Source: Lishizhenia tianjinensis
Lineage (GTDB): Bacteria; Bacteroidota; Bacteroidia; Flavobacteriales_D; Crocinitomicaceae
Length of the DNA: 64,000 nucleotides
Direction: 5' to 3'
NCBI RefSeq assembly: GCF_900116425.1
Contig: NZ_FPAS01000001.1
Coordinates: 682,001 to 746,000 of the forward strand
Part shown: positions 37,247 to 64,000 of the stretch, piece after piece
How positions within the stretch are numbered: position 1 is the first letter of the stretch
Layout of the letters: each line of letters begins with the position of its first letter
Notes under the pieces: generated by a model
Told to the model about the DNA's origin: nothing
The model's input: the letters and a program-made list of their open reading frames with translations, nothing else
Databases searched by the model: none
Position numbers and translations under genes: made by a program

Positions 37247-37639
37247 GTGGAAATTACAAAGGTATATTATGATGGTGATTGTGGATTTTGCAATGCGTCC
37301 GTGGCATTTATTTTAAAAAATAGAAAGCACGATGCTTATCGCTTTATTCCCCTTCAATCTAAAAAGGCCAAAGAAGAATTAATTCCTTTTGGAATAGATC
37401 TAACCGACCTCTCCACAATTTACACGTTAAAATCCGGTAAACTCCGAAAGAAATCGAGTGCAGTTTTACGTCTTGCTACGGACTTAAAATTTCCGGTAAA
37501 TATATGCTCCGTGGTCTTGATTGTACCAAAGCCCATACGCGATTTTGTTTATAATTGGATTGCTAAGCATAGATTAAAGCTTAGCAGGCAAAAATGTTAT
37601 GTGCCAAATCCGGAGGAAAAAAGTATGTTCGAGTATTAA
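37247..37639 (+). CDS. DCC-family (DUF393) thiol-disulfide oxidoreductase-like protein
   Basis: 130 residues from a GTG (37247). YYDGDCGFCNASVAFILKNRK has the DGxCxxC motif of the DCC family (thioredoxin-like), followed by FIPLQS and TIYTLKSGKLRKKSSAVLRLA, as in typical members. The enzyme activity is inferred from the CxxC motif only. It converges, with a 4-base stop overlap, on the Cys-rich mini-protein gene; both being thiol proteins is suggestive but may be chance. Confidence 0.85.
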   Translation: MEITKVYYDGDCGFCNASVAFILKNRKHDAYRFIPLQSKKAKEELIPFGIDLTDLSTIYTLKSGKLRKKSSAVLRLATDLKFPVNICSVVLIVPKPIRDFVYNWIAKHRLKLSRQKCYVPNPEEKSMFEY

Positions 37640-37788
37640 AACTTCGGACAACTTTTACAAGGCTTGCCTTTCTTCTTATACTTCTTACAGCATTTTTTCT
37701 TGCCACAACAAAAAGAAAATTCAGACTCTTCTTGCATAAATACCTGAGTTGAAAGTAAAGAAGTGCGCTCTTGTTGTTCTATCTTCAT
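37636..37788 (-). CDS. 50-residue Cys/Lys-rich mini-protein under a Fur-like palindrome
   Basis: ATG at 37788 to TAA at 37636, 50 residues. The N-terminal half is acidic and Gln-rich (MKIEQQERTSLL); the second half is FCCGKKKCCKKYKKKGKPCK followed by SCPKF: six cysteines and thirteen lysines in the last 24 residues. No signal peptide and no membrane helix. Expression support is unusually good for its size: a perfect -7 box (TACTTTTG) 22 bases upstream and a 17-base perfect palindrome between that box and the ATG. Clustered cysteines with a strong positive charge could bind metal or nucleic acid. I do not recognise a named family. A short C-terminal motif of this type may recur in Flavobacteriia, from memory only. 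Confidence 0.75.
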   Translation of the reverse strand: MKIEQQERTSLLSTQVFMQEESEFSFCCGKKKCCKKYKKKGKPCKSCPKF

Positions 37789-37792
37789 TTTA

Positions 37793-37809
37793 TTTAGATT
37801 AAATCTAAA
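37793..37809. promoter_or_regulatory. Palindromic operator at the Cys-rich mini-protein start site
   Basis: TTTAGATT-A-AATCTAAA, an 8-1-8 perfect palindrome, starts right after the -7 box and so covers the transcription start. Its layout is like Fur-family (Fur/PerR/Zur) boxes, and DtxR/MntR sites are also possible. The only other copy of TTTAGA-N5-TCTAAA that I found in the window is at the TonB receptor gene (63190-63206). Confidence 0.65.
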
Positions 37810-37817
37810 CAAAAGTA
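37810..37817 (-). promoter_or_regulatory. -7 promoter box of the Cys-rich mini-protein gene
   Basis: Minus strand reads TACTTTTG, a perfect TAnnTTTG match immediately upstream of the palindrome; no clear -33 TTG is seen. Confidence 0.65.
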
Positions 37818-54630: not shown

Positions 54631-55491
54631 ATGGATAAATTAAAAGTAATTGAGTGTCCGAGAGACGCCATGCAAGGGTTACACGATTTTATACCCACAG
54701 AACTTAAGGTAAAGTACATTAACCAACTTTTAAAGGTAGGTTTTGACACCATAGATTTCGGAAGTTTTGTAAGCCCAAAAGCCATTCCTCAGATGCGCGA
54801 TACGGCTGAGGTATTAAAGCAACTTGATTTATCTCAAACACAGTCTAAACTCTTGGCCATCGTTGCCAACAAAAGAGGTGCAACGGATGCTTCTCAATTC
54901 GAAGAGATAGATTACCTCGGTTACCCTTTTTCCATCTCTGAAACGTTTCAACAGCGTAACACCAACGCAAGCATAGAAGAAAGTTTAGGACGTTTAGAAG
55001 AAATTGTCAACATCACCCAAAAGGCGAAAAAAGAACTTGTGGTATACATAAGCATGGGCTTTGGAAATCCTTACGGAGATGCTTGGTCACCAGAATTAGT
55101 TACCCGTTGGTCGGAGCGTCTCTACAAAGAGTTAGGCATTAATATTTTAGCCTTGTCAGATACCATAGGCGTTGCCAATCCTGAAATTATCACCCAATTA
55201 TTTACCACTCTAATTCCAGCGCTTCCAGAAGTAGAATTTGGAGCACACTTACACTCTACTCCAACCGAGTATACAGAAAAAGTGAAAAGCGCATATGAAG
55301 CAGGATGTAGACGTTACGATGGAGCCATTAAAGGTTTTGGTGGTTGTCCTATGGCCAAAGATGATTTAACTGGAAACATGCCTACAGAAGGTATGTTGCA
55401 TTGGTTCGATAAACACGGCATAGAAACAGGTTTAGATTTAGATGCTTTTAGAGACAGTCTAGACCTCAGTTTACAAGTATTTCCCGTTTAA
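54631..55491 (+). CDS. Hydroxymethylglutaryl-CoA lyase
   Basis: 286 residues, DRE-TIM metallolyase fold. IECPRDAMQGLHDFIPTELK has the Arg-Asp catalytic pair, GAHLHSTPTEYTEK the metal-binding His-x-His, and FGGCPMAKDDLTGNMPTEGML corresponds to the catalytic Cys loop of HMG-CoA lyase. The enzyme splits HMG-CoA into acetoacetate and acetyl-CoA in leucine breakdown. The family also holds related aldolases, so substrate is probable but not certain. TATATTTA (54619-54626) is a one-mismatch -7 box ending 4 bases before the ATG, so this gene may also start its own transcript. Confidence 0.85.
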   Translation: MDKLKVIECPRDAMQGLHDFIPTELKVKYINQLLKVGFDTIDFGSFVSPKAIPQMRDTAEVLKQLDLSQTQSKLLAIVANKRGATDASQFEEIDYLGYPFSISETFQQRNTNASIEESLGRLEEIVNITQKAKKELVVYISMGFGNPYGDAWSPELVTRWSERLYKELGINILALSDTIGVANPEIITQLFTTLIPALPEVEFGAHLHSTPTEYTEKVKSAYEAGCRRYDGAIKGFGGCPMAKDDLTGNMPTEGMLHWFDKHGIETGLDLDAFRDSLDLSLQVFPV

Positions 55492-63092: not shown

Positions 63093-63189
63093 ATCCCTGC
63101 TGTTACTGGGCTATAAAAATAAAGATTAAAGCCTAATCAACCCTACAATTCTCGTGGGTATTAAACGAAAAAAAAGAACGATCAATTTA

Positions 63190-63206
63190 TTTAGAATAAT
63201 TCTAAA
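63190..63206. promoter_or_regulatory. Palindromic operator upstream of the TonB receptor gene
   Basis: TTTAGAAT-A-ATTCTAAA is a perfect 8-1-8 palindrome (9-1-9 with the flanking A/T), sharing TTTAGA-N5-TCTAAA with the site at the Cys-rich mini-protein gene. Layout resembles Fur-family boxes. Confidence 0.65.
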
Positions 63207-63224
63207 TACCTACCTCTAGGTATT
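63205..63224. promoter_or_regulatory. Second palindrome adjoining the first at the TonB receptor promoter
   Basis: AATACCTA-CCTC-TAGGTATT, perfect 8-base arms and 4-base spacer, overlaps the first palindrome by two bases and reaches the candidate -33 TTG (63223-63225). It could be a separate regulator site or part of a composite operator. Confidence 0.45.
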
Positions 63225-63245: not shown

Positions 63246-63253
63246 TTACTTTG
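63246..63253 (+). promoter_or_regulatory. Near-match -7 promoter box of the TonB receptor gene
   Basis: TTACTTTG differs from TAnnTTTG at one base; a TTG lies exactly 20 bases upstream (63223-63225), the expected spacing for the -33 element. The leader is about 17 bases. Confidence 0.55.
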
Positions 63254-63274: not shown

Positions 63275-64000
63275 ATGTTACGTTATTTAGGAGTTTTCCT
63301 TTTCTTAGTTTTCACCAACACGCTCTTGTCCCAAAACCTCACTGTTTATGGAAAAGTAAGTGCAAACGGGAAAGTCATAGAAAATGCTAAGGTAAATTTT
63401 GGCAATGGAAAAGGCGCATATACCACTGCTACAGGAACATTTGAAGTAAATGGACTCAATTCGGGTGAATATACTATACAAGTAAGCGCTTTTGGTTATG
63501 AAAACTTTACGGCGCGCATTCAATTGCTAAAGGATACTACCCAACTCTCCCCCTTTAATTTAACACCTATAAAAGACATAGAAGGGGTTACTGTAAGTGC
63601 AGAAACCGATACCAAAATTACCCAACAAGAAGCCTATAATGTCACAGCCATAGACTTAAAGCCTGTACAAAACCTAAATTTAAATGTAAATGAAGTTTTA
63701 AATGGAACACCTGGCATTCGCGTAAGAGAGTCAGGGGGAACAGGATCTGATTTTAGCTTTTCTTTAAATGGTTTTACAGGAAAACAAGTGCGCTTTTTTA
63801 TTGATGGATTACCAACGGATTATTTGGGACAAGCTTTCGGACTTAACATCGTACCTGTAAATTTATTGGACAGAATTGAAGTGTACAAAGGCGTTGTTCC
63901 CGTGCGTTTGGGTGCTGACGTTTTGGGAGGAGCTGTTAACATAGTCACCAAAAACAAGAGCAAAGATTTTGTTGATGCCAGTTACAGTTTGGGTTCTTTT
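63275..64000 (+). CDS. TonB-dependent outer-membrane receptor, N-terminal part (cut by window edge)
   Basis: 242 codons from the ATG at 63275 to the window edge with no stop. Signal peptide MLRYLGVFLFLVFTNTLLSQ, then a carboxypeptidase-like regulatory domain (about 22-97: LTVYGKVSANGKVIENAKVNF, SGEYTIQVSAFGYENF), and the plug domain (VNEVLNGTPGIRVRESGG, VRFFIDGLPTDYLG, LLDRIEVYKGVVPVRLGADVLGGAVNIVTK). The barrel lies beyond the window. It is not part of a SusC/SusD pair as far as visible. Two palindromes in front of it point to metal- or siderophore-type control. Confidence 0.93.
   Translation, partial: MLRYLGVFLFLVFTNTLLSQNLTVYGKVSANGKVIENAKVNFGNGKGAYTTATGTFEVNGLNSGEYTIQVSAFGYENFTARIQLLKDTTQLSPFNLTPIKDIEGVTVSAETDTKITQQEAYNVTAIDLKPVQNLNLNVNEVLNGTPGIRVRESGGTGSDFSFSLNGFTGKQVRFFIDGLPTDYLGQAFGLNIVPVNLLDRIEVYKGVVPVRLGADVLGGAVNIVTKNKSKDFVDASYSLGSF

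Follow-up and report, generated by a model that had tools for sequence, protein, structure and literature searches.

To our knowledge, little has been published on how Bacteroidota control iron. The closest described operator is that of Riemerella anatipestifer YM, for which a Fur-box consensus, ATTTAGAATTATTCTAAAT, was predicted by software, and purified Fur shifted four target promoters in that species, the consensus itself not being used as a gel-shift probe in the available part of that paper (PMC5609570). A second paper, likewise in its available part, gives a different, E. coli-type box for R. anatipestifer, GATAATGATAATCATTATC (PMC7976709). Two further systems are relevant here. Operators of the NarL type are built from the heptamer TACYYMT (available text of PMC4886647); TACCCCTAAAGGGGTA is the sequence of an engineered NarL site, and the sites for NarL at napF and yeaR span -40 to -49 and -38 to -47, respectively (available text of PMC4549865). 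The ferric-siderophore reductase FhuF carries a C-terminal [2Fe-2S] motif, C-C-x10-C-x2-C, and is controlled by Fur (available text of PMC8068687).

The window, a 64-kb stretch of Lishizhenia tianjinensis DNA, contains the palindrome TTTAGATTAAATCTAAA at 37793-37809, in front of a gene for a cysteine-rich mini-protein, and the palindrome TTTAGAATAATTCTAAA at 63190-63206, in front of a TonB-dependent receptor gene. T9SS sorting domains and the -7 elements point to a member of Bacteroidota. Both palindromes are very probably Fur operators that would repress these two genes. An earlier sequence-only reading had linked the two genes through a shared palindrome, and the link is upheld by the comparison, which points to common Fur boxes that are conserved and situated at iron promoters. 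The features of the two promoters are as follows.

37636..37788 (including the stop codon), minus strand: gene for a 50-aa Cys/Lys-rich mini-protein (CC-X9-C-X2-CP), identified as an ORF with same-family matches
37793..37809, no strand: Fur-box variant TTTAGATT-A-AATCTAAA, spanning the point at which transcription of the mini-protein gene is expected to begin
37810..37817, minus strand: TACTTTTG, an exact TANNTTTG, as the -7 promoter element for the mini-protein gene
63189..63207, no strand: Fur box ATTTAGAATAATTCTAAAT, part of the 21-bp palindrome 63188-63208; its minus strand is the R. anatipestifer consensus
63205..63224, no strand: X-box AATACCTACCTCTAGGTATT, a TACC-N8-GGTA inverted repeat, likely an activator site, -33 region
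63246..63253, plus strand: -7-like element TTACTTTG, 21 bp after the X-box and one mismatch from TANNTTTG
63275..64000, plus strand, running past the window: TonB-dependent receptor gene, followed by a DUF4374 gene

The box at the receptor gene shares with that of R. anatipestifer the same 19 bp (on the minus strand), a distance of less than 100 bp from the start codon and an outer-membrane receptor gene, whereas the site at 37793-37809 has, in both arms and two bases out from the centre, a T in place of the A of the consensus. A further difference is that the Fur box of the window's receptor is joined to the X-box, of which the available text on R. anatipestifer makes no mention (PMC5609570). 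The type of Fur box is already known.

Probable Fur boxes in the window and the genome

The window sequence bears out both palindromes as the sequence-only reading had placed them. Its statement that they are the only two TTTAGA-N5-TCTAAA sites in 64 kb is correct for exact matches; a third match, at 55447-55463, appears once one mismatch is allowed, and at least three matches at this threshold also occurred in 5 of 100 shuffles. The whole 3.56-Mb genome holds three exact sites, two of which are the window pair while the third (G000:C2:764088) lies 16 bp upstream of a gene start. All three are intergenic and at promoters, in line with the earlier placement of both window sites. The palindrome at 63190-63206 is present as the reading had it, but its actual extent is larger, 21 bp in a 10-1-10 arrangement. 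The reversed control pattern also gave three exact genome matches, and with one mismatch the control was commoner (66 vs 43). Since the core is not commoner than its reversed control, neither its rarity nor its 12 fixed bases prove anything, and the case rests on position and conservation among relatives.

The 19-bp 9-1-9 palindrome ATTTAGAATNATTCTAAAT was used as the Fur-box consensus (Bacteroidota type). With up to three mismatches, it matched 17 genome sites, as against 5 for its reversed control; it recurs without a mismatch at the receptor site (63189-63207), and the site at 37792-37810 has three mismatches. Among the 17 sites are the promoters of the TonB receptor with its DUF4374 gene, of an HmuY and HemS haem operon, of an operon with DUF4856, imelysin and HTTM genes (where a 572-aa frame is also found), of a PepSY_TM gene, of an Fe-S_biosyn (SufA-like) gene and of two GerE regulators, a tally that covers all of the sites but C8:99738 and C8:276562. 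A gene near the SufA-like one is presumably SufB-like. The sequence-only reading had proposed a genome scan for matches upstream of metal or oxidative-stress genes; the scan with the 19-mer gave matches before iron and haem genes and several others at genes without an evident iron role or within ORFs.

Two strong Fur-like boxes with one mismatch were observed at G000:C3:58335, between what we take to be nqrA- and apaG-like genes, and at G000:C6:242105, about 120 bp upstream of a multihaem cytochrome gene. Both are possible iron-sparing targets.

The genome encodes a Fur protein of 151 aa (G000:C2:901600-902055) that exceeds the Pfam cut-off with an E-value of 2.1e-27; its best NCBIfam matches are Fur models, at scores below their cut-offs. 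Because iron and haem genes stand behind the other boxes, Fur is favoured over PerR as the predicted regulator. The earlier expectation of a Fur-family regulator accordingly gains support from the identity with the R. anatipestifer consensus, from these iron and haem genes and from the conservation of the mini-protein promoter.

A second palindrome beside the Fur-like boxes

The Fur box of the receptor gene overlaps by 3 bp with the X-box at 63205-63224, a second palindrome that was absent from the sequence-only reading. The receptor itself is likely a siderophore receptor, its best NCBIfam match being the siderophore receptor MxcH, below the cut-off of that model. In the genome, AATACC-N8-GGTATT has five exact copies (reversed control, 0), and 27 copies when one mismatch is allowed (control, 11). 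The five exact copies lie at the TonB receptor, a GerE gene, the imelysin operon, the SufA-like gene and the PepSY gene, all within 90 bp of a Fur-like box. Across 150 genomes of the family, 404 copies in 140 genomes were found, compared with 36 control matches in 32 genomes.

From these 404 copies, 79 distinct X-boxes were assembled, namely the five of the genome itself and 74 of relatives (from 30 loci and from 40 stretches taken in list order among the matches listed, not at random); copies with identical flanks were counted once, for which reason L210 was dropped, and five loci with two X-boxes had them counted apart. Fur-like boxes with up to three mismatches were located within 90 bp of 57 of the 74 X-boxes of relatives, the other 17 having none nearby. 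The reversed consensus occurred near 0 of the 79, none within four mismatches, and 117 segments located 600-1000 bp from the first 30 X-boxes contained no Fur-like box within three mismatches. Going by their translations, we take the genes beside the X-boxes of relatives to encode HmuY-like and SufA-like proteins, FeoA, FeoB, TonB receptors and DUF4856 proteins, Pfam scans of X-box neighbours having covered the genes of the L. tianjinensis genome. X-boxes were also present at 8 of 29 mini-protein loci of relatives, including one that lacks a Fur box (L067), and the window's own mini-protein promoter has none. When spacings from N2 to N15 were compared at 58 loci picked by protein similarity, only N8 was found, in nine copies.

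An X-box copy was detected in 131 of 198 genomes of the class. Outside the family, 2 of 20 fetched X-box loci had a Fur-like box nearby, both of them in family f84 (L235 and L237). The pairing of X-box and Fur box therefore looks mainly like a feature of the family itself, with these two loci hinting that it is not fully restricted to it. Neither this pairing at promoters of iron genes nor the family of mini-proteins seems to have been described in the literature searched, at the level of listings, and no published regulator was found there for the X-box operator.

The position of the X-box is precise. In 27 of 69 Fur-paired X-boxes, TANNTTTG was situated at a distance of precisely 21 bp, to one side or to both, rising to 44 of 69 with one mismatch, and no other offset from 8 to 40 exceeded 5 of 69; these are the paired members (69/87) of the 79 distinct X-boxes plus those at mini-protein loci. 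If transcription starts a few bases past the -7 element, the centre of the X-box would fall near -43, and thus, relative to such presumed starts, at an upstream activation position near -40. The centre-to-centre distance between Fur box and X-box varies from 16.5 to 66.5. The constant place of the X-box at -43 speaks for an activator, and the shifting place of the Fur box over the promoter for a repressor, so the X-box is most likely an activator site.

The symmetrised X-box consensus, approximately TACCWYA-WW-TRWGGTA, matches inverted heptamers 2 bp apart in a 7-2-7 arrangement. It resembles the NarL/NarP 7-2-7 operator in having TACC-N8-GGTA, as in the engineered NarL site, and a predicted centre near -43, as at napF and yeaR (available text of PMC4549865). 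It differs in its A/T-rich inner bases and in two inner heptamer positions that depart from TACYYMT (available text of PMC4886647), as well as in being tied to iron genes and Fur boxes instead of nitrate.

A candidate for the activator is a 224-aa protein with receiver and GerE domains in Pfam (G000:C2:1333634-1334308, minus strand), whose displayed NCBIfam matches are mainly NarL/FixJ-type models, all below cut-off. The gene is preceded by a Fur-like box with two mismatches. Among its relatives, 24 of 29 loci were resolved, the homologues having been picked by similarity to the 209-aa protein P0002 and not from a tree; a Fur-like box with up to three mismatches was present at 22 of these 24 (reversed consensus, 0/24) and began exactly 20 bp before the ATG in 16 of 24. 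An exact X-box lies upstream of two GerE genes, the genome's own 209-aa gene and L166, and the other 23 resolved loci are without one. We tentatively suggest that the 224-aa NarL-family protein binds the X-box, a proposal held at somewhat less than even confidence.

The 209-aa GerE protein P0002 was dropped as the X-box regulator: identity with its 29 best-matching relatives is only 31-38%, and the 224-aa paralogue makes the stronger candidate. Its gene (G000:C2:764113-764742), the one at the third exact core site, is located behind an X-box and a Fur-like box, its receiver domain is unrecognised by Pfam, and a one-mismatch X-box at C2:764734 overlaps its end.

The X-box regulator could quite possibly be a protein that is not NarL-like at all, such as a MerR-type iron activator resembling MliR from Bizionia argentinensis or a RirA/IscR-like Fe-S sensor of the Rrf2 type. 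Such a regulator would suit a set of targets that spans both uptake and Fe-S assembly (suf, feo, haem and siderophore genes, some of these names being presumptive). MliR is an iron-homeostasis activator in a Bacteroidetes species and is unrelated to Fur, although the main text of the MliR paper, as available, contains neither 'palindrom' nor 'inverted repeat' (PMC9478572), and a TACC-N8-GGTA repeat near -43 fits the NarL 7-2-7 sites at napF and yeaR (available text of PMC4549865).

The mini-protein gene and its promoter

At the mini-protein gene, TACTTTTG (37817-37810) directly adjoins the palindrome core at 37793-37809. The earlier view that the site covers the transcription start, with repression as the implication, agrees with this arrangement, the start being predicted from it. 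The 220 bp upstream of the mini-protein CC codons were searched for ATTTAGAATNATTCTAAAT with up to three mismatches, and a box was kept at 29 of 30 same-family loci, own included (8 with one mismatch, 14 with two and 7 with three); these are the best-scoring 30 of 70 matching genomes and are related, so the counts are not independent. The exception, L067, has eight mismatches at best. In other families, the box occurred at 10 of 16 mini-protein loci (reversed consensus, 0/16; shuffles, 1/320), the remaining six having none within three mismatches. These 16 are drawn from 23 outside loci, the seven weakest (L111-L117) having been excluded, six for want of a CC-x(8-11)-C-x2-C frame and L116 for a frame without a start codon. 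The best box starts at the G of TTTG in 17 of the 30 loci of the family, and in other families it is typically just upstream of an TATATTTG-like element. A box that moves but stays in this way is as expected of a roadblock operator. The promoters of L046 and L047 each hold two Fur-like boxes, the first next to the start, the second some 65 bp upstream.

Each arm of 37793-37809 departs from the Fur consensus by its T, two bases away from the centre, which raises the question of whether the site is instead a DtxR/MntR-type operator, distinct from the Fur box at 63190. The genome does encode one DtxR-family protein, which contains a FeoA domain, and a 425-aa neighbour has a further DtxR-type domain; beside them there is apparently a metal ABC transporter operon. 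Such an operator is nonetheless improbable, because six related mini-protein promoters (L055, L056, L063, L068, L070 and L071) carry the standard Fur form with one mismatch near the start, and because the mntR-like promoter contains TTTTTAGACAGGACTAAAAA, an even palindrome (TTTAG-N6-CTAAA) as opposed to the odd one (TTTAG-N7-CTAAA) of the window site. Inspection of this one promoter by eye thus found a form other than that of the window site at the regulator's own operon. Since relatives, too, have variants with this T (L047 and L072), 37793-37809 is taken as a variant of the Fur box and not as the site of another regulator. DtxR/MntR, which the sequence-only reading had kept as the alternative only, is disfavoured by the iron genes found and by the different spacing at the mntR-like promoter. 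The TTTTTAGACAGGACTAAAAA sequence, at L043:11700-11719 before the mntR-like gene, is a candidate MntR operator in the lineage.

Three PF01475 proteins are encoded in the genome, and the two short ones (124 aa and 138 aa) match Fur, Zur and PerR models weakly, which leaves a small chance that one of these Zur-/PerR-like proteins uses the boxes; the iron and haem genes behind the boxes speak against it, as does the binding of Fur to promoters with such boxes in R. anatipestifer (available text of PMC5609570). That the two palindromes match by mere chance in an AT-rich genome, for which the equal counts of core and reversed control might be cited, is extremely unlikely considering their retention at related promoters (29/30, compared with 0/30 for the reversed consensus and 0/600 for shuffles). 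Fur boxes are thus the preferred reading of both sites, and the box suggests that the mini-protein would be expressed at low iron.

A protein search matched the mini-protein, MKIEQQERTSLLSTQVFMQEESEFSFCCGKKKCCKKYKKKGKPCKSCPKF, in 70 of 150 genomes of the family, its own genome among them, spread over 18 of 24 genera, and a profile search also found it in other families of the class. Alignment of 19 members showed that C28, K30, K31, C33, C34, K35, K36, C44, C47 and P48 are invariant. For four members, Pfam models gave nothing at E <= 1 and NCBIfam models nothing but matches below threshold, and the string CCKKYKK had no occurrence in the published literature searched. Among the sub-threshold models, TIGR03950 (siderophore ferric-iron reductase) was weakly matched by three of the four (best E 0.0059; 16.5 bits vs a cut-off of 137.9) and was not accepted. 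The gene converges with another at 37247-37639 (plus strand), presumably DCC/DUF393-like, the two overlapping by four bases at their stop codons (37636-37639). A similar gene neighbours the mini-protein in 5 of 30 loci, own included. The largest neighbour clusters in the synteny comparison reach 9 of 30 loci, and the neighbour in nine of the 30 (L046, L047, L050, L061, L064, L068 and others) is what we take to be an SUI1/YciH translation factor-like protein.

The C-terminal segment of FhuF offers a likeness. In E. coli FhuF, which is 262 residues long, residues 241-259 read RRTCCQRYRLPDVQQCGDC. The mini-protein likewise has CC-x2-Y and, after a comparable gap, C-x2-C, and like FhuF it is presumably behind Fur (available text of PMC8068687 for FhuF). 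Unlike FhuF, the mini-protein stands alone and is about 43-50 aa long in its own family. The gap is CC-x9-C-x2-C in that family, whose members therefore do not contain the FhuF_C motif CC-x10-C-x2-C, and CC-x8, once CC-x10, in other families. PF11575 (FhuF_C) gave no match at the mini-protein of the genome at E <= 1 and scattered short matches over 59 relatives, and no FhuF-like ORF was seen among those listed at the sole match above cut-off (L074). A profile comparison with E. coli FhuF by hhalign returned an E-value of 0.05 and a probability of 1.1. In view of the missing own-genome PF11575 match and this hhalign probability, the mini-protein is not assigned to FhuF_C.

FbpA-C of Bacillus are small basic, lysine-rich, Fur-regulated proteins. 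Compared with them by description only, the mini-protein is likewise tiny, lysine-rich and apparently Fur-controlled, and it differs by its conserved cysteines. Metal or Fe-S binding is in our view its most likely role, the rival being that of a small basic RNA-binding protein.

Proposed circuit and its meaning for the family

The sequences, positions, conservation and gene sets are observed; from them we infer Fur binding, repression, the transcription start, and the activator with its identity, which together suggest the following circuit. When iron is sufficient, Fur-Fe would cover 37793-37809 behind TACTTTTG, over the start, and block the mini-protein gene, and Fur at 63189-63207 would block the promoter of the TonB-dependent receptor. 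When iron is short, both genes would be released. At the receptor promoter, Fur and the X-box activator may compete, as suggested by the 3-bp overlap of their sites and by the activator position 21 bp before the -7 element. The activator would be the putative NarL-family response regulator, and with its own gene behind a Fur box, a feed-forward loop would result.

More broadly, it is conceivable, though we would put it below an even chance, that iron acquisition and Fe-S assembly in the family have as their master activator a Fur-silenced NarL-family response regulator, which would work via AATACC-N8-GGTATT around -43 in a coherent feed-forward loop with Fur, the boxes of the latter lying alongside, and that the mini-protein serves the response to low iron as a minimal Cys-ligated module for Fe-S or iron handling. 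From the comparison the outline of a Fur regulon emerges, with a Cys-rich mini-protein family tied to it. It also brings out a second, precisely positioned operator common to siderophore, haem, Feo, imelysin and suf-type genes, and as the candidate activator is a single gene, the idea is directly testable.
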